This document shows positions 5,634 to 44,577 of a stretch of DNA of 64,000 bases, piece after piece. Position numbers and translations under genes: made by a program. Source of the stretch: Bacteroidota bacterium (lineage in GTDB: Bacteria; Bacteroidota; Bacteroidia; Chitinophagales; Saprospiraceae); the NCBI GenBank assembly GCA_963169325.1, contig CAUJEY010000132.1, positions 1-64,000 of the forward strand. Direction: 5' to 3'. The notes under the pieces were generated by a model. The model made no database searches. It had not been told where the DNA came from and saw nothing but the letters and a program-made list of their open reading frames with translations. Each line of letters opens with the position of its first letter. The first letter of the stretch is position 1.

Positions 5634-5659
5634 CCGTCCACCGTCCACCGTCCACCGTC
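5634..5659 (+). repeat. Heptamer array (CCGTCCA)n ending 6 nt before an ATG
   Basis: CCGTCCACCGTCCACCGTCCACCGTCT directly upstream of ATG 5666. Confidence 0.85.
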
Positions 5660-14972: not shown

Positions 14973-14982
14973 TTTGTGTTTT

Positions 14983-19271: not shown

Positions 19272-19275
19272 ACTT

Positions 19276-19313
19276 TAAAGGTTTCTGGTTTGAAGGTTTC
19301 TGGTTTGAAGGTT
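19276..19313 (-). repeat. AACC-word array directly upstream of mqnD start
   Basis: Minus strand: aaaaccttcaaaccagaaaccttcaaaccagaaacctttaaagtATG. Confidence 0.88.
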
Positions 19314-19481
19314 TTACCAAAACAATTGATTGAGCAGAGGGTAAAGGTCCATCATTCCGGGTTGTTTAGAAAATCGAATTGCTCCGGTTAATAGGAGTGA
19401 AATAACCTTCCTGTCAACAAGGAGAAGTGCCTTTGTAAAGAATAGAACATCTTTGCGCTAATTCAGCATATTTATTGGGCA

Positions 19482-19520
19482 CTTCAAACCAGAAACCCTC
19501 AAACCAGAAACCTTCAAACC
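19482..19520 (+). repeat. AACC-word array directly upstream of the pseudouridine synthase start
   Basis: cttcaaaccagaaaccctcaaaccagaaaccttcaaacctatttATG. Confidence 0.88.
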
Positions 19521-19525
19521 TATTT

Positions 19526-20200
19526 ATGCCAAGCATTATTTACGAAGACAATCATTTGTTAGCCATAAACAAACCGGCCGGCTGGCTGGTTCAGGGCGAC
19601 CGAACCGGCGACCCGACGCTGACGGACTGGGGAAAGGCTTATTTAAAAGAAAAATACGCCAAACCCGGCGCCGTTTTTCTGCACCCGGTACACCGGATCG
19701 ACCGGCCGGTGAGCGGAGTCGTGCTGTTTGCCCGCACGGATAAGGCGCTGGGACGCCTGACTACCCTGTTTCGGGAGCGTAAGGTGACCAAAACTTACTT
19801 AGCCCTGGTTTTGCAAGCCCCCAAAATACCGGCCGGCGAACTCCGGCATTTTTTGCTCAAAGATGAACAACGCAACGTCGTGACGGCGCTCCCCCGCCCG
19901 ACCGGCGATGCCAAAGAAGCCATACTCCGGTATGAATATGTTGGAATGGCCGGCGCCTGCTATCTCCTGCACGTGTTTCCGCTGACAGGGCGGCCGCATC
20001 AGATCCGGGTGCAACTGGCGGCTATGGGCTGTCCGATTCTGGGGGATCTGAAATACGGCGCGCCGGAGCCCTTGCCGGATGCGTCAATCGGGTTGCACAG
20101 CGCTTCTCTGGCACTGGAACATCCTGTGAAGAAAGAACAATTGGAGATAAAAGCGCCGCCACCGGATGCTGCATGGTGGCGGGCAGTAATGCGACGATAA
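19526..20200 (+). CDS. RluA-family RNA pseudouridine synthase
   Basis: HPVHRIDRPVSGVVLFAR; GRPHQIRVQL. Confidence 0.92.
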   Translation: MPSIIYEDNHLLAINKPAGWLVQGDRTGDPTLTDWGKAYLKEKYAKPGAVFLHPVHRIDRPVSGVVLFARTDKALGRLTTLFRERKVTKTYLALVLQAPKIPAGELRHFLLKDEQRNVVTALPRPTGDAKEAILRYEYVGMAGACYLLHVFPLTGRPHQIRVQLAAMGCPILGDLKYGAPEPLPDASIGLHSASLALEHPVKKEQLEIKAPPPDAAWWRAVMRR

Positions 20201-20288
20201 AAAAAACCTCTCCGATGACTGACACCGGGAGGCTACGAAAACAATAAACAGCAGGATAATTCTTGTGATTAGTTGATCGGGTTGTTCG

Positions 20289-20960
20289 TCACCGGCTGCT
20301 ATTTTCGCTCTTTGTTTCATCTCTATATTCCTTTATCTGACTCAACAACTCCATTGATGTTATGACCGGGTTCCATTCTTTCCCGTTAAATATAAGACGG
20401 AACCATTTTTTATCCTTATTCTCATACCGGATATTAAAAAAGAGCCAGATGGCAAGATAAGTAAATGATCCTGTTATGATGATTTGAAGTGCATATAACC
20501 AGGCGTTTCCATTTTCCAACATACTTTCATTCCAGTAAAAGGTGGTCCAGACCGGGAGTTGAAGAAAAAGCAGCCGTGTAACCCAAATCGTTGACGATTT
20601 TAAACGCGCTATCTTTTCCTGTACCGCTACTATCGGCGCACTGATATCTACCTGGTGGATAAGAATCATCTGATACAAATATATACCAATGGCCAGTTTG
20701 GTCAATAGCACCTGAATGCCTGCCGAAATCAGAAAAAACGGACTGGCGATGCTAAACAGGTTGATGATTAAGGTATCGACAAAAACAACCCATAGAAGGC
20801 CAATCACAATAGTGAATATCTTAATCGGCTTCATGGAAGATATAAATGACTGAACCTTGATCCGGGTAATATCCTCCGTATTTTTCCGGTTCAGTACCAG
20901 GTTTTCTTCCAGTTTTTTGTCGTAAGATTTCCAGATTTCTATCATTTCTAATTCTTTCAT
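20289..20960 (-). CDS. Hypothetical membrane protein encoded next to an ECF sigma factor
   Basis: Several TM segments; 6-nt gap to the sigma factor ORF. Confidence 0.7.
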   Translation of the reverse strand: MKELEMIEIWKSYDKKLEENLVLNRKNTEDITRIKVQSFISSMKPIKIFTIVIGLLWVVFVDTLIINLFSIASPFFLISAGIQVLLTKLAIGIYLYQMILIHQVDISAPIVAVQEKIARLKSSTIWVTRLLFLQLPVWTTFYWNESMLENGNAWLYALQIIITGSFTYLAIWLFFNIRYENKDKKWFRLIFNGKEWNPVITSMELLSQIKEYRDETKSENSSR

Positions 20961-20965
20961 CTTGA

Positions 20966-21475
20966 TTAGGTTTTTACGTTCGAAAATTTTTGTTTTAACT
21001 GAAGTTTTATTCTTGAAATTTTGGTAGCGATATTCGTCACGGTCAACCCAAGTATTTCTGCTATCTCCTGTTGACTGTTCTCTTCCAAATAAAGCAGCAT
21101 AATAGCCCGGTCCATTTCCTTCAGTTCCTTTATGAACCGGTGTAGCCGATCCACCTCAGCGTCTAACTCGCCCGTGTTTTCTGCCTCATACAGGTGAAGA
21201 ATTCCATCGGATAAGGGTTGGCTGATTTGATCTCTGCTATTTTCTTTTCTGTAAAAGGAAATGGAAACGTTCAACGCAATTCTGTACATCCAGGTGGTCA
21301 GCTTAAATTTTTCATCATAATGATGGAAGGAAAGCCATAACTGAAGGATGATCTCCTGAATCAGGTCCTTTCGATGTTCCGAATTTTTGCAATAGGAGTT
21401 GGCTATTTTGTAAATAATACCCTTGTTTGCTTCTATTACGGTCAGAAAAGTTTGCGCATCTCTTTTTAAAGACAT
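20966..21475 (-). CDS. ECF-type RNA polymerase sigma factor
   Basis: Region 2 KDLIQEIILQLWLSFHHYDEKFKLTTWMYRIALN and region 4 helix-turn-helix. Confidence 0.9.
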   Translation of the reverse strand: MSLKRDAQTFLTVIEANKGIIYKIANSYCKNSEHRKDLIQEIILQLWLSFHHYDEKFKLTTWMYRIALNVSISFYRKENSRDQISQPLSDGILHLYEAENTGELDAEVDRLHRFIKELKEMDRAIMLLYLEENSQQEIAEILGLTVTNIATKISRIKLQLKQKFSNVKT

Positions 21476-21595
21476 CGTTTTTAAAATTGACGTTTTGTAA
21501 CCCACGCCCTGAATTGGATATTGTGGTTTTCCTGATTATTCGCAAGAGGTCTGGAAATATCACACTTAAAGAAGAATTTTTATTCACCTTTTCGA

Positions 21596-21633
21596 TGTCC
21601 GCCTACGCACACCCGCCTGTCCGAAAACGAACA
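21596..21633 (+). promoter_or_regulatory. Two tandem dyads TGTNCG-N4-CGNACA, candidate enhancer-binding-protein sites
   Basis: TGTCCGCCTACGCACA (21596) and TGTCCGAAAACGAACA (21618), 22 bp apart. Confidence 0.65.
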
Positions 21634-21685
21634 TCCCCACACGATACACTATCTCAAAAATTTGATTATCAGCAACATACATCAC

Positions 21686-21700
21686 TGGCATGGCAATTGC
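21686..21700 (+). promoter_or_regulatory. Sigma-54-like -24/-12 promoter
   Basis: TGGCATGGCAATTGC matches TGGCAYG-N4-TTGC; 46 nt before ATG. Confidence 0.65.
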
Positions 21701-21745
21701 CGCAAACGACCAAAGTGTGAAAACAATTGACAATCCGGCTAAGCT

Positions 21746-24217
21746 ATGTTACAAAATTATCTGAAAATCGCCCTGCGCAACCTCTGGCGCAACAAATCTC
21801 AATCCGCCATCCTTATCGGCGGTCTGGCAGCGGGCATGGGCGCTTGTATGCTATTGTTGCAATACGTCAGTTTCGAGTTGAGTTTCGATGATTTCCACGC
21901 GAAAAAAGATCGCATCTACCGGGTGGTCAACGAACGTATACAGGACGGCAAAACCATCCAAAAGGGCACCATTACCTACCCAACGATCGGAGCGGCGATG
22001 GCGAAAGATTTTCCGGAGGTAGCCAATCATACCCGGATCATGCAAGGCGGTGAAGTATTCGTCCGGCACGAGGATAAACTGGCGTTGCAGGAAGGTTTTC
22101 TCTGGGTGGATGAGCATTTTTACGAGATTTTCGATTTTCCGATGCTCGCCAAATCAGACGACGGTTTTTTGGCGGAACCAAATCAGGTGGTGCTCACCCG
22201 CAGCGTCGCCGATTTTTATTTCCCTGGCGCAAAAGGAGACTACCAAACGGCAATTGGCAAGATTGTGTTCCTGGAAACGGACAATAACCCGTACAAAATC
22301 GCCGGGGTCTGCGAAGACGTACCGGCCAATTCGTTGTTGCAATTCAAGGCCCTGGGCTCCTATGCCTCCGTTATCCGGCGCGCGGGCAAAGAGGCTGACG
22401 AAAGTTGGACCTGGTCGGATTTCTGGCATTATATCGAACTGAAACCCGGCGTCGATGCCGCCGCGCTCGAAGCCAAATTCCCCGCCTTCAGCAACCGCTA
22501 CTTTCGGGGCACGGAAGTGTCGGGAAGTCAGGAAGTATTTACCCTGCAACCCCTGAAAAAAGCGCACTTGTACTCTGCCGGACTAGAATACGAGATCGGC
22601 GAAACGGCCAATGGCAGGGCGGTGTGGTCGCTGCTTATCCTCGCATTTTTTATTCTCGTCATTGCCTGGATCAACTACGTCAACCTCTCTTCCATACGGG
22701 CGATAGAACGGGCCAAGGAAGTAGGGGTGCGAAAAGTGGTTGGCGCCAAACGGAGTATGCTCATGGGTCAGTTTCTGACGGAAGCACTGCTGGTGAATAT
22801 GCTGGCGTTGTTGTTCGCATGGTGGGGCGCGGCAATGCTCAAACCCTGGTTTGCCGCCAACTTCGGGCTGGACGCTTCAGCCTTGCAATTTGCCACGGCA
22901 AACAACTGGTTCATCCCGGTCTCCATGCTGGGACTGGTACTGGCCGGCGTGCTGGTATCCGGCTTTTACCCGGCCTGGTTGTTGTCGGCGCCGCATGTTG
23001 CCAACGTGCTGAAAGGTAATTTCCGCTCCTCCTTTACGGGCGCGGCGGGCGGTGGCGGGCAGTTGCGCCAAGGTTTGGTTGTGTTCCAGTTCACCGCTTC
23101 CATCGCTCTGATCACAGCCACCTGGCTGGTCTCCAGGCAAATCGATTTTATGAACAAACAGGACCTGGGCATCAATATCGACCAGGTCGTGACGATAGAC
23201 GGGCCGAGACTGACCGGCTGGGACAGTACTTTCATCACGAAAATGAATGCTTATAAAGCAAAACTGCTCACCAATCCGCATGTTAAAAGCGGCGCCACCT
23301 CCAACCACACCATAACCGACGACCAGCAGGGCCGGATTTTTCAAATTGAAAAAAAGAGCGACAACCCTTCTAAAGAGCAATACACCAGCAGCTTCATGAT
23401 GACGGATTTCGGCTATGCCGAAACGTATGGCATCAAGCCGCTCGCAGGCAGGTTTTTTTATGAAACCGATCATAACCCCGACTTCGATAAACTCGACAAA
23501 ATCGTGGTGACGGAGACAACGGTAAAAATGTTCGGTTATGCCTCCCACGAAGCCGCCATCGGTCAAACCATCAGGTACTGGGACCGGAACTGGACCATTA
23601 TAGGCGTGCTGCCCGATTACCACACGAAGTCGTTGCACCATGCAATCGAGCCCCTGATTTTTATGCCGGCTTATTCCTCGGGCAACAAACTGTCGCTACT
23701 GCTGGACGGCAATGACATGGACGCGACCATCGGTTTCATTCAGGCCACTTTTCAGGAATTTTTTCCCGGCAATGCGTTTAGTTATGAATTCCTGAACGAG
23801 GCTTATAGCAAACTCTATGAAGCCGATGCCCGCTTCGGGAGAATTCTCGGCTTTTTCACCTTGCTTACGATCCTGATTGCCTGCCTCGGCTTATTCGGGC
23901 TGGCTTCGTACACGACGTTTTTAAGAAAAAAAGAGATCGGTGTGCGTAAAGTACTGGGCGCCTCCACGGCTGGCATCGTTGCGCTGCTGTCGAAGGATTT
24001 TTTGAAATTAGTCCTTTTGTCATTGGTCATTGCGTCGCCGGTGGCCTGGTATTTTATGCACCATTGGTTGCAGGAGTTTCCATACCGGATCAACATCGAA
24101 TGGTGGGTATTTGCCCTGGCGGGTGTTTCGGCCCTGGCCGTGGCGTTTCTGACGGTGGGCGCACAGAGTATGAAGGCGGCGTTGGAGAATCCCGTGAAGG
24201 CGTTGCGGAGCGAGTGA
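21746..24217 (+). CDS. ABC transporter permease, MacB/FtsX type
   Basis: LKIALRNLWRNKSQSAILIGGLA, two FtsX domains (AKEVGVRKVVGA; KKEIGVRKVLGAS), C-terminal NPVKALRSE. Confidence 0.93.
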   Translation: MLQNYLKIALRNLWRNKSQSAILIGGLAAGMGACMLLLQYVSFELSFDDFHAKKDRIYRVVNERIQDGKTIQKGTITYPTIGAAMAKDFPEVANHTRIMQGGEVFVRHEDKLALQEGFLWVDEHFYEIFDFPMLAKSDDGFLAEPNQVVLTRSVADFYFPGAKGDYQTAIGKIVFLETDNNPYKIAGVCEDVPANSLLQFKALGSYASVIRRAGKEADESWTWSDFWHYIELKPGVDAAALEAKFPAFSNRYFRGTEVSGSQEVFTLQPLKKAHLYSAGLEYEIGETANGRAVWSLLILAFFILVIAWINYVNLSSIRAIERAKEVGVRKVVGAKRSMLMGQFLTEALLVNMLALLFAWWGAAMLKPWFAANFGLDASALQFATANNWFIPVSMLGLVLAGVLVSGFYPAWLLSAPHVANVLKGNFRSSFTGAAGGGGQLRQGLVVFQFTASIALITATWLVSRQIDFMNKQDLGINIDQVVTIDGPRLTGWDSTFITKMNAYKAKLLTNPHVKSGATSNHTITDDQQGRIFQIEKKSDNPSKEQYTSSFMMTDFGYAETYGIKPLAGRFFYETDHNPDFDKLDKIVVTETTVKMFGYASHEAAIGQTIRYWDRNWTIIGVLPDYHTKSLHHAIEPLIFMPAYSSGNKLSLLLDGNDMDATIGFIQATFQEFFPGNAFSYEFLNEAYSKLYEADARFGRILGFFTLLTILIACLGLFGLASYTTFLRKKEIGVRKVLGASTAGIVALLSKDFLKLVLLSLVIASPVAWYFMHHWLQEFPYRINIEWWVFALAGVSALAVAFLTVGAQSMKAALENPVKALRSE

Positions 24218-24364
24218 GTGCTGACAGATCGGGATGAAGCCGTTGCGGAGCGCGTGGGGTTTTCCTGAAATTTAGATACACATTTTAACTGAATTCATTT
24301 ATTTTAGTCAGAACACCTTTTAATTATTCTATAGCAGATTCATTCTTGAATTTGAAAATCCTTA

Positions 24365-24524
24365 GAAACCGTCTGAAAACCCCTGGCGAGGTGAGAAGGT
24401 GCAGGTTTTGGCGTCAGACAAGGCTCGTTTTTGAGGGAATAGTCTTGTCCTATTGCCGAAAATAGCCGCCTTATGACGTCAAAAGATGCGCCTTATCGCC
24501 CGACAGGGGTTTTCAGACGGTTTC
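24365..24524. mobile_element. MITE-like element, 160 bp
   Basis: Terminal inverted repeats GAAACCGTCTGAAAACCCCTG / CAGGGGTTTTCAGACGGTTTC flanked by TTA on both sides; interior folds back imperfectly. Confidence 0.75.
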
Positions 24525-24758
24525 TTAGACTGTTTTTTGCTTTATTTGTGTAAATACAAAATTTGAAATTTCATATAATATTACTATTGCAGTAAAAGTC
24601 AGAATAAGCATAGCAATATATTCAAACATTGTATTCCATATACTGTTATTTTTCGGGTCACTATCTATTAGTAATCCTAGTGTTGTTAATCCTAGCGAAA
24701 CTAGGAATATTACGAAAATTGTTTTTTTATTCATTTTATTTAATTTTTGGCTACCCAT
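24525..24758 (-). CDS. Small two-TM membrane protein
   Basis: 77 aa with hydrophobic segments; stop is the TTA flanking the MITE. Confidence 0.45.
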   Translation of the reverse strand: MGSQKLNKMNKKTIFVIFLVSLGLTTLGLLIDSDPKNNSIWNTMFEYIAMLILTFTAIVILYEISNFVFTQIKQKTV

Positions 24759-24782
24759 GAGCAGTCACGAAGAGCCTAGTTT

Positions 24783-25019
24783 TTAAAGTTCCTTTAGCAT
24801 AACATATTTATCTATGGCTTCATTAAGTTCTTCTCCCCATAAATATTTTGCAACGATAATGCCATTTTCATCAATCAATAAATTATCCGGTATTGTATTT
24901 ATACCATAAATTATTCCGGCCGTACTATTCCGCCCTTTAAGATCACTCACGTGGTTCCAGGTTAAATTATCTTCTATAATTGCTTTTTTCCAACATACCA
25001 AAACCAACAAATATGACAC
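24783..25019 (-). pseudogene. C-terminal fragment of a TlpA/thioredoxin-like protein
   Basis: ...YGINTIPDNLLIDENGIIVAKYLWGEELNEAIDKYV; catalytic CxxC region missing. Confidence 0.65.
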
Positions 25020-25993
25020 CTCTTTTCCGGATCATCTCGCCATTCCTCTTACTCTATTCCGGTTGCATCTTCCTGGCTGCTCAGGGCGCCATTGTGGTGC
25101 AACACGCCGAACCCCGCACTGGCAGGACACTTCTCACCGATAGCCTTTCTATGCCGGAAGAAAACGCCGGATACACCTTGGTTTTGCCGGAAAAAGCAGC
25201 GCCAAAAGCGGTGCTGGTGTTGTTCCACTCCGGCAGGGATACCACCGATGCCGGTTATGAAATGCGGTTGTACGTGGAAGCCGTGAAACGGCAGGCGGCA
25301 GTGCTGTATGTTACTACGGGCAACCGTTTTGAGTTTTTATTCGACGAGTCGGCATACACACAACTGGACGGCTACCTGCACAAGGCTATAGTGGAACACG
25401 GGCTTCCCGCCGACCGACTGCTGTTTGGCGGCATGTCGCTGGCCGGCACCCGCGCCATGAAGTTTGCGATTTGGTGCCTGGAGGGAAAATCCGCACACGG
25501 TATTCGCCCGAAAGCCGTGGCCGTGTGCGATGCGCCGCTCGATTTTGTACGCTTCTGGAAAGCGCTCGACCGGTCAAAACGGCTACAAATCAATCCGATA
25601 GCCGCCAACGAAGCCGCCTGGGTGACGGCCGTTTTGGAACGAAATCTCGACGGCACCCCCAAAGAGCGCCCTGAAGCATACCAGGACTACTCCCCTTACT
25701 CCCACGACACAGACAACGGCGGCCGTGCCGCCCTGCTCAAAGACACCCCTTTCCGGGCCTATATCGAACCCGACGTGCAATGGTGGATGGACAACCGCGG
25801 CAACGATTACTACTCCATGAATGCCCTCGACGCCGCAGCCGTGGTCAATCAACTCCGCATATCAGGCAATAAAAAAGCCGAACTCGTGCTCACTTCCGGG
25901 AAAGGCCATCGCCCCGACGGCAGCCGGCACCCACACTCCTGGAGCATTGTGGATAACGGGGAATTGGTAGAGTGGTTGTTGGGCTTGGAGTAG
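25013..25993 (+). CDS. Secreted alpha/beta-hydrolase-like protein
   Basis: Signal peptide; LFGGMSLAGTRAM nucleophile-elbow-like motif; start trimmed from 24980. Confidence 0.7.
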   Translation: MTPLFRIISPFLLLYSGCIFLAAQGAIVVQHAEPRTGRTLLTDSLSMPEENAGYTLVLPEKAAPKAVLVLFHSGRDTTDAGYEMRLYVEAVKRQAAVLYVTTGNRFEFLFDESAYTQLDGYLHKAIVEHGLPADRLLFGGMSLAGTRAMKFAIWCLEGKSAHGIRPKAVAVCDAPLDFVRFWKALDRSKRLQINPIAANEAAWVTAVLERNLDGTPKERPEAYQDYSPYSHDTDNGGRAALLKDTPFRAYIEPDVQWWMDNRGNDYYSMNALDAAAVVNQLRISGNKKAELVLTSGKGHRPDGSRHPHSWSIVDNGELVEWLLGLE

Positions 25994-26004
25994 GCGGTAA
26001 CCTC

Positions 26005-29000
26005 CTACCGAACCAACGTAACATCCCCTTTGACCAGCATCCGCTGCCCGTTCGTCAGTTCAAATTCCGCATACCAGGTAAATACCCCGGGCATCATATC
26101 GCGTTGGTCGAAACGGCCATCCCACCCCAGTGTTTCCTGGTTTGGGGCAAAATCCCGGCCTTCGAACACCAGCTCGCCCCAGCGGCTGTACACCCGGAAC
26201 ACACGCACCACACGCACACAGGAGGCTGTCTCCGGATAAAACCAATCATTCCGGCCATCATCGTCCGGTTGAAATGCATTGGCCATATACACATCGCAAA
26301 CCGGATCCACGCGCAGCCAGATCGAATCGGTAGCCATACAACCCCGGCTGTCCGTCACTTTCAGGGCGTACCAGGTGTTCTCTTCCGGATTCGCAAACGG
26401 CTCGGCACAGGTATTACAACTGAGCTGGTCCGGCGGCGTCCAGGCGAATTGCAGCGGCGGTTCGCCAAAAACCACCGGCGTTAACTGAATGGATTGGCCC
26501 AGTCCAACCTGGGCCGTCGAGGGTAAATCTATCGTTACGTCCGGCAGTGCTGCTACCGTCACCAGCACCGTAGAATCGCAGCCATTGGCCGCCAAAAAGG
26601 CAAACGGATACGGCCCACCGGGCGTTAAATTCTGGCCGTTATAAACCGCCGGCTCGCCGGGGCAAGTCACCAATTGTACCTGACTCAATACCGAATCAAT
26701 TTCCAAAACCGTCACCAATACCGTGGAATCGCAGCCATTGGCAGCCATAAAGGCAAACGGATACGGCCCGCCGGGCGATAAATTTTGACCGTTATAAACC
26801 GCCGGCTCCCCGGAACAGGTCACCAATTGCACCTGACTCAACACTGAATCAACTTCCAAAACCGTCACCAGCACTGTAGAGTCGCAGCCGTTAGTCGCCA
26901 AAAAAGCAAACAGATACGGCCCACCGGGCAGTAAATTTTGACCGTTATAAACCGTCGGCTCGCCGGAGCAGGTCACCAATTGCACCTGACTCAATACTGA
27001 ATCAATTTCCAAAACTGTCACCAGTACTGTGGAATCGCAGCCATTCGCAGCCAAAAAGGCAAATGGATACGGCCCACCGGGCAGTAAATTTTGACCGTTA
27101 TAAACCGCCGGCTCGCCGGGACAGGTCACCAATTGCACCTGACTCAGCACCGTATCAATTTCCAACACTGTCACCAGCACCGTGGAATCGCAGCCGTTGG
27201 CCGCCAGGTAGGCAAAAGGGTACGCGCCGGGCAGTAAATTTTGGCCGTTATAAACCGCTGGTTCGCCGGGACAGGTCACTAATTGCACCTGACTCAACAC
27301 CGAATCAATTTCTAAAACCGTCACCAGCACCGTAGAATCGCAGCCATTGGCAGCCATGTAGGCAAAAGGATACGCGCCGGGCGTTAAATTTTGGCCGTTA
27401 TAAACCGCCGGCTCGCCGGGACATGTCACTAATTGCACCTGACTCAGCACCGAATCAATTTCCAAAACCGTCACCAGCACCGTGGAATCGCAGCCGTTGG
27501 CTGCCATGTAGGCAAAAGGGTACGCGCCGGGCGTTAAATTTTGGCCGTTATAAACCGCAGGCTCGTCGGGGCAGGTCACTAGTTGCACCTGACTCAGCAC
27601 CGAATCAATTTCCAAAACAGTCACCAGCACCGTGGAATCGCAGCCACTGGCAGCCATGTAGGCAAAAGGGTACGCGCCGGGCGTTAAATTTTGGCCGTTA
27701 TAAACCGCCGGTTCGCCGGGACAAGTAACGAGTTGCACCTGACTCAACACCGAATCAATTTCCAAAACCGTCACCAGTACCGTAGAATCGCAGCCATTAG
27801 CCGCCATATAGGCAAAAGGGTACGCGCCGGGCGTTAAATTCTGGCCGTTATAAACCGCAGGCTCGCCGGGACAAGTAACGAGTTGCACCTGGCTCAACAC
27901 CGAATCAATTTCCAAAACCGTGACCAACACTGTGGAATCGCAGCCATTGGCCGCCAAGTAGGCAAAAGGGTACGCGCCGGGCGTCAAACTTTGACCGTTA
28001 TAAACCACCGGTTCGCCGGGACATGTCACGAGTTGCACCTGACTTAACACCGAATCGCCCAAAATTTGAATTGTCAGGGTATCTGCCGACAGACACCCTC
28101 CCATTTCCCCAACAATGATGTAGGTGATATTTGCCGGTGCCGTAGTCACCACGGTCGGGCAATCGGCGCAGGACAAATGATCATCCGGGTACCAATGCCA
28201 GGCAGTAAAGGGCGCGGGCAGTTGATACGTAAACGCCGCACCGGCACAAGCCGAGCGATCCGGGCCAAGGTCGAGTACCGTGGTCGGAATCAAGGTGATT
28301 TCCAGTGTATCGCTTTGTTTATTTCCGCAACCATCCCAAACATCCACCCAGTACTTTCCGGGCACGGTGGTGGTCGTATTTGTTTGTTCGGTAGTACCGT
28401 CGTACCAGCGGTATTTCGGAAAACCAGGGCCGGCATCAAGCACTGTCACTCCTTTATCACAAACGGCGCGGTCCGGCCCCAGGTCGAGCACAGCGGTGGA
28501 TGGTTCCAGTACGGTGATATACAGCGTATCGGCGGCTTCACCACATAACGACACGGCACGGGCAATGATTTCCGTCTGGCCCGCCTCATCGAACAGGATG
28601 GTGACACTTTCCTTCGTCTGATTGGCAATTACCCCTACTCCATTGACTATGAAATCGACCGATTGAACGCCGCAGGGCAATTTTTTTAGCATATAGGTTT
28701 GTTCCTGTGGAAATTGACACAAGGTGTCCACCAGGTTTTTTTCGTCAAAATAAACGGCGGGCTTCCAAAAATAACTCACCAAAAAATTCGGCAAACTCAG
28801 GTTGGTCCCCGGCGTACCGGCCAGGGTTTGCCCGCCTTCCTGATACAGGCAACCGGCCCCGGCTTCATCCGGTTTGTGAATAATCCCCAGCTGTGTGGTA
28901 AACACCCCGGGGCCGCTGTTGGTGGTGTATATTTTGCCGTTTTTAGCCAACTGAAGTTGCCCATAATGGTAAATACCCGGGAAAGAAGCCAGCAGTACCG

Positions 29001-35280: not shown

Positions 35281-35420
35281 ATTGCCATTTTGGTGGAAGA
35301 TTCACTGGAGGGGTAAGTCGCTGCAAGGGGTGGTGTTTTTTGACCATACTTCTGTTTATTTTTATTGTCTTTATATTGTTTGTCAATCGTAAATATTTGA
35401 TACGCTATAAAGGCGAATTG

Positions 35421-35637
35421 ATACTGCTTTGACACGATAAATCAGATATCTCCTTTCAGTCGACATGACAGCTCGCGCGAGCGTAATTTTCCGTCTGATT
35501 TCTCGCTGCGCTCGAAATTTACCGGGAACGCTTTGAATATTTCGAGCGCAGCGAGAAATCCGGCGGAAAATTTAATCCCAGTTTAGCTGTCATCCCGACC
35601 ATAGGGAGGGAACTAGCCTAACGTGTCAAAGTAGTAT
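35421..35637. mobile_element. MITE-like nested palindromic element (~217 bp)
   Basis: Outer arms atactgctttgacacg / cgtgtcaaagtagtat (15/16); nested atgacagct/agctgtcat and gatttctcgctgcgctcgaaat / atttcgagcgcagcgagaaatc. Confidence 0.65.
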
Positions 35638-35807
35638 TAAGATAGCGACGGTATTTTATTGACAAAAAAACGTAAAAAAAGGATTTGTCAATAGGATTGT
35701 CAATACGGCGCGAGGTTCTTCGCTTTTCGCCCAGGTAGTTGCAACTAAACAACCCCTTACCTGTCTTTTTACCCCACGACTACACGCAACGCACAACCTT
35801 CCTGCTA

Positions 35808-38492
35808 ATGAAGCCTTTTCTGCTACTCCCTGCCATACTATGGCTCCTCCCAAACCTGTTTGCCCAAACCGCCCTGAAACCTTCCTTCCCTAAGTCGCCG
35901 GCCGAGATCGTCAAAAAACAATACCTCACCCGGCCCGCCGGCGACAACGCTATCGAATTTGATGGTATCCCCGACGAACCGGCCTGGGAAAAAGTAGACT
36001 GGGGCGGCGATTTTATTCAGTATCAGCCACATGAAGGCACGCCACCCCACCAACCCTCTCAATTCAAAATTCTATACGACGACAAATATTTGCTGATCGC
36101 CTACCGCGCTTTCGACGAGTCGCCCGACAGCATTGTGCAACGCATGAGCCGCCGCGACGAATTCCCGGGCGATTGGATGGAAATCAATATCGACTCCTAC
36201 CACGACCTGCGCACCGCTTTTTCGTTCACCCTTTCCGTGAGCGGCGTCAAAGGCGACGAATTCGTGTCGGACAACGGCAACAACTGGGACACCAACTGGA
36301 ACCCCATCTGGCACGCCAAAACCAACGTAGACAGCCTGGGTTGGACGGCAGAGGTAAAAATTCCGTTCAGCCAGTTGCGCTACGGCAACCAGTCCGAACC
36401 GGTATGGGGTATTCAGGTGATGCGGCGTATTTTCCGGAAAGAAGAACGCTCCACCTGGCAATATATCCCGCAGAACGCGGGCGGCTGGGTCAGTGGCTAC
36501 GGCGAACTGCACGGCCTGCGCAACCTGCCCACCAAAAATCAGGTGGAACTGGCCCCTTACGTGGTCGCCCAAACGGAACGGTCGGAAAAACAGGAAGGCA
36601 ACCCCTATGCCGACGGCTCTAAAAATCGCCTGAACGTCGGCCTCGACGGCAAACTGGCCGTCACGCGCGACCTGATCCTCGACTTTACCATCAACCCCGA
36701 TTTCGGACAAGTGGAGGCCGACCCCGGCGCTGTGCGTCTCGACGGGTACCAGGTGTTTTTCGAAGAACGCCGGCCTTTTTTTATGGAAAGCCGTAACCTC
36801 TTTGATTACCGGCTGACCGGTTCGGAAGCGGGCGGTGACTACGACTCAGATTTACTCTTCTATTCCCGCAGGATCGGTGGCGCACCACATACATCACCCA
36901 ACCTGAAAGCCGGCGAATTCGCCGATGTGCCGCAAAGAACTTCTATTCTGGGTGCGGCAAAATTCAGCGGCAAAACCAAAAAGGGCTGGTCCATCGGCAT
37001 CCTTGAAAGCGTCACCCAACGCGAGATGGCCACGATCGACTTCAATGGCGAGCGACGGGAAGAATTGGTGGAACCCGCGACCAATTATTTTGTCGGAAGA
37101 CTACTCAAGGATTTCGATCAGGGTAACACCATCGTCGGTGGCATTTTAACGGCCGTCAACCGCGAAAACGGCATCGATTGGATGCACCGGAGCGCTTACT
37201 CCGGCGGACTTGATTTCCAGCGTTTTTGGAAAAACCGCTGGTGGTATGTCAAAGCAAACGCGCAGTTCAGCCACGTCGAAGGAAGTGAACAGGCTATTTC
37301 GGAAACACAAACCGGGTTCACACACCTTTTCCAACGCCCCAACGCCCGGCATCTTTCGGTGGACAACACCCGAACGTCGCTCACCGGCACGGGCGGAACC
37401 TTCAAAATCGGAAAAATCGGCGGCAAGCCCGACAGCCTCGGCGGGGTGTTCAAGTTCGAATCGGGCATCACCTGGCGGTCCCCGGAACTCGAACTCAACG
37501 ATATCGGCTTTTTGCAGGCTGCCGACGAAATCAACCATTTTGCCTGGGCCGGCTACCAGATTCAAAAGCCATTTTCCATTTTCCGTAATGCCCGGGTTAA
37601 TTACAACCATTGGGCACGCTGGGATTTTGGCGGACAGTTTTTGTATTCGGCGCTCAATACCAATATACACGGCTGGTTTAAAAACAATTGGCGCCTCGGC
37701 ACCGGCCTCACCTGGAATCCGCTCGAGATTTCCAACAATGCCCTTCGGGGCGGCTCTTCGCTGCGCAAACCGCCGGGTCTGGGCAATTTCGTTTATCTGG
37801 AAACCGATAGCCGGAAAAAAGTTTTCTTTTTTGCCAATACGTTTTTTGCCTGGGGCTTTGATAAAACGGTCCGGGTGCAGGAATTTTCTACCGGTTTGAC
37901 CGTACAACCGCTCGATGCCCTGCGCTTCAGCCTTTATCCGGGATACAGCCGGGCCTGGCGAAAACAGGACCAATTTGTGGCACAAACCAGTTTCGAGGGA
38001 GCGCAGCGCGTGATCGTCAGCGAAGTGGAGCAACGCAGTTTTTCGCTCACGACCCGCCTGAATTACAATATCACGCCCGACCTGACTATCCAATACTACG
38101 CCCAACCCTTCATTTTCAGGGCCCGGTATCAGCACTTCGGCCACGTGACCGATCCGCTCCACAAACAATACGATGACCGCTTCCACCGCTACGATGCGCA
38201 GCAACTGACCGGCACGGGCGACAGTTATTCCGTGGACGAAAACCGCGACGGGGCGCCGGACTATTCGTTCGACACCCCCGATTTTAATTTTATCCAGTTT
38301 CGTTCAAATCTTGTGGTGCGCTGGGAATACATTCCCGGTTCGGAAGTATTTCTCGTATGGTCGCAGGGCAGCACCCCGGATGCCTTCGGCGACCTCGAAA
38401 CGCCACTGGTGCGGAGCCTGTTCGATAACGTGTTTGAACAACGGCCGCAGAATATTTTTTTGGTGAAATTTACATACCGGTTTTTGCTGTGA
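35808..38492 (+). CDS. DUF5916-domain protein
   Basis: DGIPDEPAWEKVDWGGDFIQYQPHEG...VDSLGWTAEVKIPFSQLRY; start trimmed from 35739. Confidence 0.9.
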   Translation: MKPFLLLPAILWLLPNLFAQTALKPSFPKSPAEIVKKQYLTRPAGDNAIEFDGIPDEPAWEKVDWGGDFIQYQPHEGTPPHQPSQFKILYDDKYLLIAYRAFDESPDSIVQRMSRRDEFPGDWMEINIDSYHDLRTAFSFTLSVSGVKGDEFVSDNGNNWDTNWNPIWHAKTNVDSLGWTAEVKIPFSQLRYGNQSEPVWGIQVMRRIFRKEERSTWQYIPQNAGGWVSGYGELHGLRNLPTKNQVELAPYVVAQTERSEKQEGNPYADGSKNRLNVGLDGKLAVTRDLILDFTINPDFGQVEADPGAVRLDGYQVFFEERRPFFMESRNLFDYRLTGSEAGGDYDSDLLFYSRRIGGAPHTSPNLKAGEFADVPQRTSILGAAKFSGKTKKGWSIGILESVTQREMATIDFNGERREELVEPATNYFVGRLLKDFDQGNTIVGGILTAVNRENGIDWMHRSAYSGGLDFQRFWKNRWWYVKANAQFSHVEGSEQAISETQTGFTHLFQRPNARHLSVDNTRTSLTGTGGTFKIGKIGGKPDSLGGVFKFESGITWRSPELELNDIGFLQAADEINHFAWAGYQIQKPFSIFRNARVNYNHWARWDFGGQFLYSALNTNIHGWFKNNWRLGTGLTWNPLEISNNALRGGSSLRKPPGLGNFVYLETDSRKKVFFFANTFFAWGFDKTVRVQEFSTGLTVQPLDALRFSLYPGYSRAWRKQDQFVAQTSFEGAQRVIVSEVEQRSFSLTTRLNYNITPDLTIQYYAQPFIFRARYQHFGHVTDPLHKQYDDRFHRYDAQQLTGTGDSYSVDENRDGAPDYSFDTPDFNFIQFRSNLVVRWEYIPGSEVFLVWSQGSTPDAFGDLETPLVRSLFDNVFEQRPQNIFLVKFTYRFLL

Positions 38493-38538
38493 ACGCACTG
38501 ACTCGCGCTTTAGCCAGGCCAATAATATAGCCATCAAC

Positions 38539-39783
38539 TTACCGGTCTTCTTCGCTTTTCACAACCGACAAAACCACCCCTTCCCGCAACCGTGTCTCCA
38601 GGGTATCGCCCGGCGCCAGGGCATCGGCGGACGTCAGCACCTTTCCATTTTTCAGGGTCAAACTGAATCCCCGCCGAAGTGCCGCTTCGGGGTGCAGGGC
38701 GGCGCAAAATGTTTCAGCCTGGTCCAGTTGCCGGACGGCGCCCAGCAAACGCCGGCGAACCAGCGCCGGCAAGGCATCGGCCAGGTGATCGATCTGCTGA
38801 CGTGCCGAGCGGGTCAGGCCTTGCGCGCCCCAATGCGCGGCGCCTTCCAGGTTATTCAATTCCAGAGTTTTGACCTTCAGGTGATGGTCCGCGTTTTCAC
38901 GGACATGGCCGGCTACGCGCAGCACATTATTTTCAAAAAACAGGTTGTGCTGGATCAGGAAATCGGCCACGGCAGTCGGGGTTTTGAGCGCCGTGTGCGC
39001 CACCAGGTCGAGCACGGATTCGTCCACGTCGTGCCCGATGCCGGTAATTACCGGTAGGGGAAGCCCGGCCGCGGTTTTGCACAAGGCCAACCGGTCGAAA
39101 GCAGCCAGGTCGAGCCGGGCGCCGCCGCCGCGCAGGATAACGGCGCAGTCGAAACGGTGGCGTTGCGCGGCGATGGAATCGAGAGCGGCAATCAGTTCTG
39201 TTTCTGCATTATTGCCCTGCACGGCAGCCGAAAACAACCGGCAATGAAACCGGAATCCGAACGGGTTGGCGGCTAATTGCTCCCGAAAGTCCTGAAAACC
39301 GGCGGCGCCCTCCGAGCTCACCACGGCTACGCGCTGCAATACGGCCGGCAAAGGGAGGGCGCGGTTGCGCTCCAGCAAACCGAGATTGCGCAGGGTTTCG
39401 ATAGTTTGCCGGCGCTGGAGTTCGAGTTGACCGAAGGTATAGGCGGGATCCACGTCCGAGATCAGCAGTTTCAGCCCGTAGCGCTCGTGAAAATCTACCC
39501 GTACCAACATACGCACTTCACAGCCTTCCCGCAACACCTCGTCGAGGGCGAGGCCTTGGGCCAGGCGCAATTTCTGGTAGTCGCGCTGCCACACCACGGC
39601 CTGCGCCTGCGCCACGATGTCGGGGTCGGTGTCCGCGCCTTTTTGCACTACATTCAGGTACAGGTGCCCACGCGAACGGCTGATTTGGGCAATTTCCGCC
39701 GTGATCCACAGCGCTTCTGGGTAGTTGAGCGCCAACACGCGGCGGATATGTTCGTAGAGGTCGAAGAGCGTATATGTCTGCAT
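38539..39783 (-). CDS. xseA: Exodeoxyribonuclease VII large subunit
   Basis: VAVVSSEGAAGFQDF, VILRGGGARLDLAAFD, PVITGIGHDVDESVLD. Confidence 0.94.
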   Translation of the reverse strand: MQTYTLFDLYEHIRRVLALNYPEALWITAEIAQISRSRGHLYLNVVQKGADTDPDIVAQAQAVVWQRDYQKLRLAQGLALDEVLREGCEVRMLVRVDFHERYGLKLLISDVDPAYTFGQLELQRRQTIETLRNLGLLERNRALPLPAVLQRVAVVSSEGAAGFQDFREQLAANPFGFRFHCRLFSAAVQGNNAETELIAALDSIAAQRHRFDCAVILRGGGARLDLAAFDRLALCKTAAGLPLPVITGIGHDVDESVLDLVAHTALKTPTAVADFLIQHNLFFENNVLRVAGHVRENADHHLKVKTLELNNLEGAAHWGAQGLTRSARQQIDHLADALPALVRRRLLGAVRQLDQAETFCAALHPEAALRRGFSLTLKNGKVLTSADALAPGDTLETRLREGVVLSVVKSEEDR

Positions 39784-39790
39784 TTTCAGG

Positions 39791-39832
39791 CGGGTTGCTG
39801 GTTGGAGGGTTGCTGGTTAGAGGGTTAGGGGC
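39791..39832 (-). repeat. AACC-word array upstream of xseA start
   Basis: Minus strand: ctaaccctctaaccagcaaccctccaaccagcaacccgcctgaaaATG. Confidence 0.82.
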
Positions 39833-39835
39833 GCA

Positions 39836-40432
39836 TCAATCCCGTTTTTCTTTAAAGGTAAAATCGCCGGTAAATCGAATTGTGAAGCCGTTTATCGGGT
39901 TTGAAATATTACTCACCAACAGCACATACCGTTCGCCGGTTTTTACCGCGGCCGGTTTAAGCCAGTTATTATCCCCACGATCGGAGCATCCGGCATCTTC
40001 TGTGAGATCCTTTTCTTTGTCGCGCAGCCCGGTTGGGCCCATGCAGGGGCTTTTTGAGCCCTTTGAATCGCCCGCCGCCATACAGCGCACAATCGTTTTG
40101 TCTTTGCAGCCACCGGTTGCGGGGATTTGAAACAACACAAAATCATAATCATCGTCGATACTGTCGGGCTTGATGGTGAAGCGCAAGTTACCCGGTTGAT
40201 CGATCCCGAAACTGATCCAGGTAGAGTTTTCTTCGGCCTGCCCGAAATTTTCGCCGTTCATAAAGCAGGGGATAAGTCCGGCTTCTTCGCGGTCATGGCC
40301 TTCTCCGTAAGCCGCGACAAAATGGTTGTAATAATTGGTGCCGATCCAAAAGGCGGAATCACAATCGGCATGGTTTTGCGCCAGGCTGGGGTTGGCTGCA
40401 TACAGGCAGCAGAAAAGGGGCAAGTATTTCAT
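39836..40432 (-). CDS. Secreted hypothetical protein
   Basis: Signal peptide MKYLPLFCCLYAANPSLAQ; start trimmed from 40462. Confidence 0.65.
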   Translation of the reverse strand: MKYLPLFCCLYAANPSLAQNHADCDSAFWIGTNYYNHFVAAYGEGHDREEAGLIPCFMNGENFGQAEENSTWISFGIDQPGNLRFTIKPDSIDDDYDFVLFQIPATGGCKDKTIVRCMAAGDSKGSKSPCMGPTGLRDKEKDLTEDAGCSDRGDNNWLKPAAVKTGERYVLLVSNISNPINGFTIRFTGDFTFKEKRD

Positions 40433-40514
40433 TATTTGTATGGAATTTTCATTTCTCCACAAACTTCGGCTAAAGCGGATGAAACGCCGCTCAAAACTGC
40501 CGTATTTTTACCCC

Positions 40515-43500
40515 ATGAATATAAAATCAACCCTCGCCCTTCTCCTTAACCTCTTTTTCCTCGCCCTCCTCCCCGCCCAGGAAAACGTAGGTTGGAAACG
40601 TTTCCTTTTCCAGGAAAACGCCAACTACCACACCATTTGCAGCGAAGTAGAACGTTATTTCGAAACGCAAAAACGCGCGCCCGAGCCCGAGGACGCGGAA
40701 TTTAACTGGAAAGACGAAGGCTCCGAATACAACCAGTTTATGCGCTGGAAATGGTTTTGGTCGTCCCGCATCAACGCCGACGGCAGTTTCCCGGACATTC
40801 GCGGCATTGCCACGTTGCGCGAAGGGCCGGACACGCAAAAAAAAGCCGCGGACCGCGGCGGCTCCGGCACTTCCTGCGGCTGGGAACTGATCTCTCAAAA
40901 CACCTGCACCGGCGGTTACAACGGCATGGGGCGCACCACCGCCATCGCCTTTCACCCCACCGATCCGAAGATTTACTACGTCGGCTCGCCCAATGGAGGC
41001 ATCTGGAAAACGACGGACGGCGGCGATTCGTACCAACCCATCAGCGAAGGGCTGCCCTATAACGGCGCCTCCAATATCCTCGTGGATTACAACAACCCCA
41101 ATGTGCTGTATGCGTCCAACGGCGACCACTCGGGCTGGTGGACGTACAGCACCGGCATATACAAATCCGTCGACGCCGGCGTCACCTGGTTTCCCACGGG
41201 ACTCAACTGGTCGCTGACGCAAAATGTGGCCGTACTGAGCGCCGCCATGGACCCGCAAAACCCAGCCGTACTGCTCGTAGCCGCCAGCAACGGCCTCTGG
41301 CGCACCGCCGATGGCGGTGGCAACTGGACCAAAGTGCGCGACGGCTTTTACTCCGACGTGGAATTTCGCCCCGGCGACGGCTCCGTTGCCTACGCGGCGC
41401 TGCACGATTACTGGGGCGTGAGCCAGATTTACCAGTCGGTAAACGGCGGCCTGAACTGGTCGCAACGCAGCGACTTTTCCTTCCCCCACAACTGGATCAG
41501 GCTATCCGTCAGCCCGGCCGATCCCAAACTGCTGTCCGCCGTTTGTATCTACGACGGCAACCGGAAATTTTACCTGTCCACCGATAACGGCGCCGACCTC
41601 ACTTACCGCTCCGACTGCCCGGAAAGCGATATCCTGATGTGCTCGCCGGCCAACCCCAACGTCATCTACTGCGGCGCCGTCAATGCCTACCGCTCCAACG
41701 ACCAGGGCGCCAGCTGGGTAAAAATTTCGCACTGGCACGGCGGCCAGCCGGAGCCGGAAATTCACGCCGACCAGCGCAATATTTCCTTCCAGCCCGGTAC
41801 CAACCGCATCTTTTTCTGCAACGACGGTGGCATTTACGCCTACGACGAACCCGCCCAAACCTGGCAGGAACGCTCCAACGGCCTGTTGATCACTCAATTC
41901 TACCGGATTGCCGTGTCGCAAACCGATGAAATGTTTATGATCGGCGGCACCCAGGACAACGGCGGCCGCAAACGTGTGGGCGCCGGCGAATGGGAATCCA
42001 CCAACGGCGGCGACGCTATGGAAGTGGCAATCGACTACACCGACCCCAATATCCTGTACACCACCTATATCAACGGCCAACTCTACCGCTCCATGGACGG
42101 CTGGGTGAACGACGTATACTACCGCATTAGCGACAACCTGCCCGGCCAAACGCCTGACCACGACCTCTCCGGCGCCTGGGTGTCGCCCTACCAGATCGAC
42201 CCGCTGAACCCCAACGTGCTGGTGCTCGGCTATGCCAACGTGTACCGCACCACCAACCGGGGCGTCACCTGGACGCAGATCAGCAATAACCTGATCGGCA
42301 CCGTGGGGGCAAAACTGGAAGCGCTGACCATCGCGCCGTCCAATTCAAATATCATTTATGCTGCTTACAGCAACAAACTATACAAAACCACTAACTTAGG
42401 CGGAAACTGGACGACCACCACCACACCCGGCGACGCGCCCATCACCTCCATCACCGTGCATCCGCAAAACCCCGATATCGTATATATCACCCGCGGATCA
42501 TACAATGCCGGTTCCAAAGTTTTTCGTTCCGACAACGGCGGCGGCAGCTGGATCAATGTTTCCGGCTCCCTCCCCAACGTGCCCACCAACTGCCTATACC
42601 TCGATGTGGCCGCCGACGGCACTTTCCTGCTTTTTACGGGCAACGACCTCGGCGTCTGGTTTCGCAGCAGCACCATGACCGATTGGCGCAGCTTCAACCA
42701 AAACCTGCCCGTCACCATCGTAAGCGACCTGGAATTGCAGCGCTCGTCGCGCAAACTGCGCGCCGGCACCTACGGGCGCGGCATCTGGGAGTATGATATA
42801 AACCATTTGCCTGCGGCAAATTTTGCGATTTGTACCGGCGAAAGCCGCGCAAAAATCTGCCTGCCGCAAACATTCTCCACCACCATCGATGCCAATGCCT
42901 GGCAGGACCTGAACGGCCCCATCAACCTGTCGGTCGGCAACTTGCCCAATGGCGCGAAAGCCACGCTCAGTGCGGCGACGCTCCAGCCGGACGGCAGCGC
43001 CACCATTACGCTCGACCTGCCGGCGGGCACTGCCGAGGGTGAGTACCCGGTTGCGATTTACGGCACGGCCGGCGGCGATACCGCCCTGGCTTTTATTCGC
43101 CTGATCTTGGTTTCCAACGACTTTTCTGCGCTAACGCCCACGGCGCCCGCCAATGGCGGCTCCGGCGTCAGCCCCTTTCCTGTGCTGCACTGGAACAGCG
43201 TACCCGACGCTGACCGCTATGAATTGCAACTGGCTACCAGCCCGGTGTTCGATGCCGGTTCGATCGTACAGGCTTATACTAATTTGACTAAAGATTCCCT
43301 GCAGTGGACCGTCGCCCTCGACGAAGGCCGTGTGTACTACTGGCGCATCCGGCCGGTAAATGAATGCGGCGCAGCCGCCTGGGCCGATCCGTTTGTTTTT
43401 GTCACGGCTTCCAAAACCTGCCTCCCCGCCACGGCCACCGGGTTGCCAATAAATATCACGGCTAACGGAACGCCCACTATTGAATCTAAAATCACCGTGG

Positions 43501-44465
43501 CCGCCAACGGCCCGATCAGCGAACTAAAGGTTAAAAATTTTGAAGGGAACCACCAGTTTTTCAAAGACCTGGAGGTGCATCTCATCAGCCCTACCGGCAC
43601 TGAGGTGTTGTTGTTTAAAAACAAATGCGCCAGTTACAGCGGCGGTTTCAAACTCGGCTTCGACGATGCCGCCCCGCAGGCTTTCGGTTGTCCGCCCCCG
43701 CAAAACAGCAATTACTACCGGGCAGAGGGCCAACTTGGCGCCTTTACCGGCGAAAACGCCGCAGGCGATTGGACGCTGCGCGTAAAAGACAACCAAATCA
43801 GCGGCGGCGGCCAACTCAAGGGCTTTGCGCTGGAATTTTGCTCCACCGTTGCGCTGAATCCACCGTTGATTATCCGGAATAACCTGCTGCAAATTGCCCC
43901 GGGCAATAACACGGTGGTGACCGCCGATTTGCTGAAAGCAGAAGACGCCAATACACCGGCCCCGCAACTCGTCTTTACGTTGGTTACCGCGCCCGAATTC
44001 GGTCAGCTACAGCGCAACTGGGCCGGCGAAATGCAGGTGGGCGAGCAATTCACCCAAGCCGACCTGGACAACGGGGCTATCCGGTATTTCGACTACGGCA
44101 CGCCCAATGCCGGCGACCGTTTTCACTTCAGCGTGACCGACGGCGAAGGTGGCCTTGCGGCAGATGTGTTTCATATTCAGCAGTTTCCATCGGGTACGAA
44201 CGAGCCGGGCAAAGCCTTGTCCTTTATGTTGGCGCCCAATCCCGCGACCGAAACGTTGCGGCTTACCTTGAACGAAGGACTGGATTCGGAGGCACAGGTA
44301 TTGTTGTTCAACCTTTCCGGACAATTAATGCGCAGCCGGACGCTGCCAGCCGGTAGTTTAGCGATGGTGCTGGACGTGGCGGATTTGCCGGAAGGCGTAT
44401 ATCTGGTGACGTTGCAGAGCGGAAATGGAATGGGGGTGAGAAAGGTGGTGAAAGGCAAAATGTAA
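40515..44465 (+). CDS. Secreted sialidase/VPS10-like propeller protein with P-domain-like module and T9SS type A sorting domain
   Basis: Repeated GGIWKTTDGGDS / VYRTTNRGVTW; proprotein-convertase-like LEVHLISPTGTEVLL...WTLRVKDN; C-term LAPNPATETLRL...GVYLVTLQSG; start trimmed from 40335. Confidence 0.9.
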   Translation: MNIKSTLALLLNLFFLALLPAQENVGWKRFLFQENANYHTICSEVERYFETQKRAPEPEDAEFNWKDEGSEYNQFMRWKWFWSSRINADGSFPDIRGIATLREGPDTQKKAADRGGSGTSCGWELISQNTCTGGYNGMGRTTAIAFHPTDPKIYYVGSPNGGIWKTTDGGDSYQPISEGLPYNGASNILVDYNNPNVLYASNGDHSGWWTYSTGIYKSVDAGVTWFPTGLNWSLTQNVAVLSAAMDPQNPAVLLVAASNGLWRTADGGGNWTKVRDGFYSDVEFRPGDGSVAYAALHDYWGVSQIYQSVNGGLNWSQRSDFSFPHNWIRLSVSPADPKLLSAVCIYDGNRKFYLSTDNGADLTYRSDCPESDILMCSPANPNVIYCGAVNAYRSNDQGASWVKISHWHGGQPEPEIHADQRNISFQPGTNRIFFCNDGGIYAYDEPAQTWQERSNGLLITQFYRIAVSQTDEMFMIGGTQDNGGRKRVGAGEWESTNGGDAMEVAIDYTDPNILYTTYINGQLYRSMDGWVNDVYYRISDNLPGQTPDHDLSGAWVSPYQIDPLNPNVLVLGYANVYRTTNRGVTWTQISNNLIGTVGAKLEALTIAPSNSNIIYAAYSNKLYKTTNLGGNWTTTTTPGDAPITSITVHPQNPDIVYITRGSYNAGSKVFRSDNGGGSWINVSGSLPNVPTNCLYLDVAADGTFLLFTGNDLGVWFRSSTMTDWRSFNQNLPVTIVSDLELQRSSRKLRAGTYGRGIWEYDINHLPAANFAICTGESRAKICLPQTFSTTIDANAWQDLNGPINLSVGNLPNGAKATLSAATLQPDGSATITLDLPAGTAEGEYPVAIYGTAGGDTALAFIRLILVSNDFSALTPTAPANGGSGVSPFPVLHWNSVPDADRYELQLATSPVFDAGSIVQAYTNLTKDSLQWTVALDEGRVYYWRIRPVNECGAAAWADPFVFVTASKTCLPATATGLPINITANGTPTIESKITVAANGPISELKVKNFEGNHQFFKDLEVHLISPTGTEVLLFKNKCASYSGGFKLGFDDAAPQAFGCPPPQNSNYYRAEGQLGAFTGENAAGDWTLRVKDNQISGGGQLKGFALEFCSTVALNPPLIIRNNLLQIAPGNNTVVTADLLKAEDANTPAPQLVFTLVTAPEFGQLQRNWAGEMQVGEQFTQADLDNGAIRYFDYGTPNAGDRFHFSVTDGEGGLAADVFHIQQFPSGTNEPGKALSFMLAPNPATETLRLTLNEGLDSEAQVLLFNLSGQLMRSRTLPAGSLAMVLDVADLPEGVYLVTLQSGNGMGVRKVVKGKM

Positions 44466-44492
44466 AAGTCAAAAGTCAAAATGTAAAAGGGC
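44451..44492 (+). repeat. Heptamer array AAAGGCA-AAATGTA-AAAGTCA-AAAGTCA-AAATGTA-AAAGGGC spanning a stop codon
   Basis: Read directly; TAA stop 44463-44465 lies inside the array. Confidence 0.9.
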
Positions 44493-44510
44493 GGGATACG
44501 GCGTGTACCC

Positions 44511-44572
44511 AGCAACCTTCAAACCAGAAACCTTCAAACCATCCAACCTTCAAACCCTCAAACCAGCAACCT
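44511..44572 (+). repeat. AACC-word array upstream of phytanoyl-CoA dioxygenase-like gene
   Basis: agcaaccttcaaaccagaaaccttcaaaccatccaaccttcaaaccctcaaaccagcaacc just before ATG 44578. Confidence 0.9.
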
Positions 44573-44577
44573 TTTTT

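Follow-up and report, generated by a model that had tools for sequence, protein, structure and literature searches.

Tandem-word arrays in intergenic gaps of a Bacteroidota genome direct their C-rich strand into both ends of the adjoining genes

Short tandem-word arrays between the genes of an 8.07-Mb Saprospiraceae genome follow one rule of polarity: the C-rich, G-poor strand is directed from the gap into the adjoining gene, at gene starts as well as at gene stops. The orientation was counted in 1.71 Mb of this genome with 1205 genes (89 % coding) called by our own simple hexamer model, on which the gene starts rest. A part of this sample was picked for AACC words, which alters the array density and should not alter the polarity. 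In total, 294 intergenic arrays were mapped in the sample, and AACC-type words had 358 matches in the genome. Within 25 nt of a start codon the C-rich strand pointed into the gene in 66 of 69 arrays, which is the sense orientation; within 25 nt of a stop codon it did so in 99 of 120 arrays, which is the antisense orientation. The initial annotation of the window (the whole stretch of 64,000 nucleotides analysed, Table 1) had placed AACC-word arrays always in sense just upstream of an ATG. For gene starts this observation was right and strong, with 66 sense versus 3 antisense arrays genome-wide. The 'always' was lost at the stops, where arrays are no rarer than at starts and mainly antisense, and a rule restricted to leaders was rejected on the same count. 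Neighbouring arrays of opposite skew were arranged G-first, i.e., with the G-rich strand running 5'-3' toward the gap middle from both flanks, in 85 cases and C-first in 9 (p 1e-16). As inverted repeats, both arms had a common vocabulary in 86 of these 94 pairs. Six listed gaps with different words in each arm, including 44466-44577 in the window, were all G-first. About 12 vocabularies coexist in the genome, among them AACC, AACTTC, AACTCAAA and AATGACC, and the majority polarity at stops was present in 8 of 8 well-sampled ones. Polarity at both gene ends, a mirrored anatomy and many vocabularies characterize these elements. Convergent gaps were occupied most often (33 of 109, 30 %), followed by tandem gaps (95 of 471, 20 %) and divergent gaps (29 of 176, 16 %; convergent versus divergent p 0.008).

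In the window, TRF detected 11 arrays with a period of 7/8 or about twice that, compared to 0-1 in each of ten Markov-1 shuffles of the window. The four AACC arrays of the initial annotation were all recovered at the distances to the start codon given in Table 1, with the C-rich strand as mRNA sense on either DNA strand. They had been counted as four independent copies; the arrays of mqnD and of the pseudouridine synthase belong together as the arms of a single inverted pair within one divergent gap, separated by a spacer of about 170 nt. The xseA array occupies most of its 52-nt gap. Similar behaviour had been claimed for the CCGTCCA array and for the AACACT array before the DUF255 gene, and it applied to both; the second AACACT arm is located at a stop, 5 nt past the stop codon (15121) of a minus-strand mechanosensitive (MS)-channel gene and antisense to it. 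Altogether four arrays of the window are at stops (Table 1), the three from 44451 onward with AAAGTC words, and the one at 44451 has words unlike those of the AACC arm across the gap. Flanking genes were named by Pfam: mqnD family PF02621, pseudouridine synthase PF00849, exonuclease VII large subunit PF02601, PhyH-like PF05721, DUF255 PF03190, and further Smr, mechanosensitive channel and EF-G-like. For the hairpin at the DUF255 leader an RNA fold of -98.6 kcal/mol with a stem of about 55 bp was predicted (z -15.8); the stem ends 13 nt short of the AUG, and these 13 nt are unpaired and A-rich in the predicted fold. The convergent hairpin 46565-46679 had a predicted fold of -65.9 kcal/mol (z -13.5), and the two-vocabulary gap 44460-44580 was without a hairpin (z +1.5). 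An Rfam scan of the whole window gave zero matches above the gathering score. A longer repeat, a 150-bp unit in ten tandem copies (26555-28056, 89 % match), is part of the gene for a 3091-aa M43 peptidase/CHU_C protein that resembles type IX secretion substrates.

Table 1. Tandem-word arrays of the 64-kb window and their position relative to genes
Array	Position	Strand	Location
CCGTCCA heptamer array, single	5634..5659	+	6 nt 5' of the Smr-domain gene start (5666), C-rich strand sense
AAAACACT-word arm, start side of a G-first hairpin	14972..15037	-	directly adjacent to the DUF255/DsbH-like start (14972)
Stop-side arm of the same hairpin, AACACT words	15057..15115	+	at the stop of the MS-channel gene
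AACC array, sense; left arm of inverted pair	19274..19314	-	2 nt 5' of the mqnD start (19271)
AACC array, sense; right arm of inverted pair	19482..19521	+	4 nt 5' of the pseudouridine synthase start (19526)
AACC array, sense; without partner arm	39792..39828	-	8 nt 5' of the xseA start (39783)
AAAGTCAAAATGT array	44451..44488	-	overlaps the stop (44465) of the upstream sortilin/P-domain gene; mRNA G>C
AACC array, sense	44509..44573	+	4 nt 5' of the PhyH-like start (44578)
Stop-side arm, left half of a convergent-gene hairpin	46565..46618	-	1 nt past the stop of the beta-barrel gene 45745-46563
Stop-side arm, right half of the hairpin 46565-46679	46640..46679	+	overlaps the end of the EF-G-like gene (46665-48779, minus)
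CATTTATC-type array in the PGA_cap gene	58072..58103	-	N-terminal signal-peptide-like stretch LLFIIYHSSFIISVNAQ
CATTCATC array in frame within mnmE	62032..62067	+	mnmE 60862-62370; encodes HSSFIIHHSSLI

The polarity recurred in related genomes (pooled relatives: starts 35:4, stops 38:12, G-first pairs 21:2). In G009, a member of the same genus, the AACC arrays of the loci L220-L230 extend over 280-540 bp (maximum 537 bp), far longer than those of the window's genome, with the same polarity. Eighty loci from other taxa around a DUF255 homologue had a low array density, with starts 10:1 and stops 10:4; loci with the same lean include Hymenobacter L078 and L133. The AACTTC hairpin pattern was found among 395 genomes of the class in the own genome alone (5 loci G-first, 0 C-first) and was absent in the other 394, thus this vocabulary is lineage-specific. 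AAACCAGAAACC was abundant in 3 of 25 genus genomes, the own genome being one of them.

Orthologous gaps were compared with G051, the closest relative found, a sister species with about 85 % protein identity. Arrays were present at 12 of 23 orthologous starts and at 0 of 15 control genes (p 8e-4), in a comparison where array genes were the better conserved ones (orthologues with at least 60 % identity for 26 of 30 start-array genes versus 12 of 30 matched array-free genes) and TRF missed irregular AATGACG arrays in array and control sets alike. With a slightly looser threshold, all 13 listed start-side arrays of G051 had C>G in sense. Orthologous convergent gaps held an array in 8 of 19 cases versus 1 of 18 controls (p 0.019), and the arm nearest the stop was G>C. 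In about half of the start-side cases, judged by eye, the vocabulary had changed. The gap upstream of DUF255 contains a AAAACACT hairpin here, a GGTTTAGAT arm and a CAATCACT arm in G051 and an AACC hairpin in G020, and is array-free in three other relatives; the convergent gap after the gene at 45745 contains AAAGTC here and AAATCAAC or AACC hairpins in G051 and G020. In the comparison with one sister species, place and polarity were inherited while the words turned over. Among the conserved start-array genes were SecA-, RpsB- and RimO-like proteins (names assigned by eye). In the pre-DUF255 gap of G051 (L231), the start codon belongs to the last array word (CACTCAATG), and the arrays at L182 and L322 also include the ATG of a start or the TGA of a stop. 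Array words may set the positions where genes begin or end.

Arrays were also present inside genes. The mnmE array is part of an additional stretch that immediately precedes the conserved ISA motif; in the alignment to MnmE 3gee, 74 aa are present where the structure has 36. Another in-frame array was located in tsaB (G000 C10:19479-19546; tsaB by sequence, Pfam TsaD family), and ppc (G000 C18:9100-9303) contains an inverted CCGTCCA pair in frame, just before a conserved segment. Therefore the array-making process is not confined to leaders. In-gene pairs were G-first in 4 cases versus 1, too few for a test of polarity. The PGA_cap gene with its CATTTATC-type array is of the capsule-synthesis type.

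On the start side, the arrays have the properties of leaders. The Shine-Dalgarno (SD) sequence is rarely used, as had been presumed: it occurred in 5 of 607 leaders of this genome, and SD 5-mers in 0 of 69 array leaders. The G content of leaders was about 7 % with arrays versus 15 % without, and the leaders of this genome have an A peak at -11 to -14. In predicted folds, the unpaired fraction at -20..-1 was 0.62-0.69 for single-array leaders versus 0.51 for controls; paired-array leaders were more closed than controls at -40..-21 (0.37) and reached 0.54 at -20..-1. Single arrays thus belong to the class of SD-free, G-poor Bacteroidota leaders, paired arrays are open in the last ~20 nt only. 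Flavobacterium johnsoniae initiates without SD, adenines at -3, -6, -12 and -13 help initiation, and low structure around -20..+20 tunes it (PMC6847099). The genome studied here is likewise SD-less and A-rich at -11 to -14, and the open, A-rich end of the DUF255 leader agrees; the work on F. johnsoniae dealt with single nucleotides and structure (PMC6847099), here repeat arrays are concerned. G content and folding data fit generic leaders whose words do not matter. Judged from the 66:3 ratio, the G content and the predicted folding, start-adjacent arrays are most likely interchangeable G-poor leaders for SD-free initiation. This role would not be the reason for the existence of the elements, because convergent gaps are the fullest and because in 29 of 46 cases a tandem start-side array shares its transcript with an inverted arm. 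A leader filter alone cannot set the polarity, because convergent gaps, which are without a start codon, show an equally strong polarity, and a leader role cannot account for the stop-side arms. The suggestion of leader modules in the initial annotation is therefore partly supported: the SD-free genome, low leader G, open single-array leaders and the persistence of arrays speak for it, the stop arrays, the general C>G bias of leaders and the pairing against it.

The reading that we prefer, tentatively and as something short of probable, regards these intergenic 'mirror arrays' as the product of a repeat-generating process, at inherited loci with word turnover, with the start-side arm serving as a generic leader. 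The process would fill gaps with 7-8-nt words, possibly by slippage, by copying in an inverted, fold-back manner and by exchange among the arrays of one genome. The G-rich strand of the words runs 5'-3' toward the gap middle from both flanks, so that the C-rich strand enters each gene. In the comparison with one sister species, the loci were passed down and their vocabulary was replaced. The C/A-rich, G-poor arm next to a start codon would act as a sequence-independent leader that keeps approximately -20 to -1 G-poor and open; the 66:3 ratio, the G content and the folding suggest that the G-rich orientation at starts is removed by selection. The stop-side arm is usually present as the inverted partner, its polarity being outside the reach of a start-codon filter.

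Among the alternatives, bidirectional hairpins at transcription borders, with one arm for each gene border, that stop or insulate transcription are unlikely, yet they account for several observations: the enrichment in convergent over divergent gaps, the very stable predicted RNA hairpins, the convergent positions kept in G051 and the ACTTTTACATTTTG family, which ends in a T-rich arm resembling a two-way terminator. However, a crude scan for intrinsic terminators, with a GC-rich stem and a T run after it, detected the same share in convergent gaps with arrays (4 of 28) as in array-free ones (8 of 56). Arrays as stand-ins for intrinsic terminators were rejected on this result, since they seem not to replace them. 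Many arrays have one arm only, divergent gaps are occupied too, and two-vocabulary gaps such as 44460-44580 form no hairpin, which does not suit border elements.

A mobile or insertional REP/MITE-like repeat that copies itself as a G-first unit and for which gene borders are the survivable insertion sites is rather unlikely. A few vocabularies are common to many loci of one genome, as in the AACC-type matches, the AACTTC hairpin is missing from all other genomes of the class that were searched, and in-frame copies occur in mnmE, tsaB and ppc, some as G-first pairs; all this would suit mobility. But orthologous gaps are occupied well above controls with different words, which random insertion would not give, and array lengths vary continuously. 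REP palindromes end in a GTAG or CGTC tag; by inspection, the elements of the window have no such tag at their base and no conserved core either. REP and BIME are described as numerous intergenic, single palindromic units of 20-40 bp (PMC3733652, PMC3116915). The arrays resemble them as many intergenic palindromic units that form RNA and DNA hairpins and are tolerated between genes, and differ by arms of tandem words with variable length, up to 59-66 bp per arm in the window.

Dedicated leader modules of a translation-enhancer or regulator-binding type, with words recognised by the ribosome, by S1 or by another RNA-binding protein, are improbable. The sense orientation at starts, the better conservation of array genes and the persistence of start-side arrays in G051 are in their favour. 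Free replacement of words at one locus renders a word-specific recognition unlikely, and stop arrays are at least as common, in antisense, with convergent gaps the fullest. A reading of this kind was given by MacGregor (2015, PMC4679880) for TAACTGA direct repeats, which in Beggiatoaceae, Cyanobacteria and a few Bacteroidetes are mostly intergenic, mostly 'forward' and a few nt from the start codon of genes that are mostly without SD; sets may include other heptamers, and one Bacteroidetes set directly follows a stop in reverse orientation. Thus the start-side orientation is already known from the TAACTGA heptamers (PMC4679880), and the arrays share with them tandem 7-nt-type words, forward and a few nt before an SD-less start. 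In contrast, our vocabularies lack TAACTGA as a repeated word. The TAACTGA system consists of a single word, predominantly at starts, for which inverted partners are nearly absent; here about 12 vocabularies of mixed 7/8-nt words coexist in a genome, many in inverted pairs, stops are at least as frequent, opposite-polarity pairs are G-first in 85 cases, and words are replaced at orthologous gaps. The polarity, the vocabulary turnover and the in-frame copies in mnmE, tsaB and ppc look new. The short tandemly repeated repetitive (STRR) heptamers of heterocystous cyanobacteria are many-copy intergenic 7-nt tandem repeats with lineage-specific sequence. They share the intergenic tandem 7-nt build; the STRR descriptions found mention neither start/stop polarity nor mirrored arms. 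The term STRR occurs in PMC2670836.

Neutral slippage repeats, oriented merely by stop codons and the base composition of leaders, are quite improbable, although the polarity has a trivial component. Start-side orientation largely follows a general constraint, because array-free leaders are already C>G in 79 % (633 C>G versus 170 G>C); array leaders reached 98 % (84:2). Slippage would also be compatible with the excess of stop codons on the G-rich strand (1008 versus 610 on the C-rich strand) and with the stop-poor CCGTCCA vocabulary, which is often found within genes in both orientations. After stops, however, array-free sequences are even (324 G>C versus 293 C>G), as opposed to 116 G>C versus 22 C>G for arrays (p 2e-12): the start-side polarity is partly trivial, the stop-side polarity is not. 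The polarity is retained by vocabularies in which neither strand has an excess of stops (AACTCAT 7:0, AACCAAT 4:0), and AATGACC, with stops on the C-rich strand, leans the same way (9:5). An orientation that is a stop-codon artefact was rejected on these vocabularies, the stop codons being at most a partial cause. Array positions are moreover conserved between species, which is against neutrality. Nor is the polarity a general trait of intergenic hairpins: array hairpins were G-first in 75:16 (p 3e-10), hairpins in array-free gaps in 23:14, without significance. For the arms themselves, the match to the arm of the own locus was 0.74 versus 0.68 for same-word arms at other loci; a strict mirror-order copying of arms was rejected on this small difference, and copying within a locus is weakly supported. 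An undescribed repair activity of a telomerase-like or another templated kind, which adds words from a template that can change and leaves the arrays as scars, was considered because the G-first geometry, present in about a dozen unrelated vocabularies, is that of short G/T-rich words added to both 3' ends of a chromosome break that is then joined. This reading is very improbable.

For the biology of this organism, a large share of the gaps holds elements with inherited place and polarity and uninherited sequence, which an ordinary alignment would label as unconserved. Should the start-side arms work as leaders, any G-poor sequence would be acceptable for SD-free initiation. An intrinsic polarity would be a clue to a repeat-making or repair process. 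Array words that enter core proteins in frame are a visible source of new protein loops.
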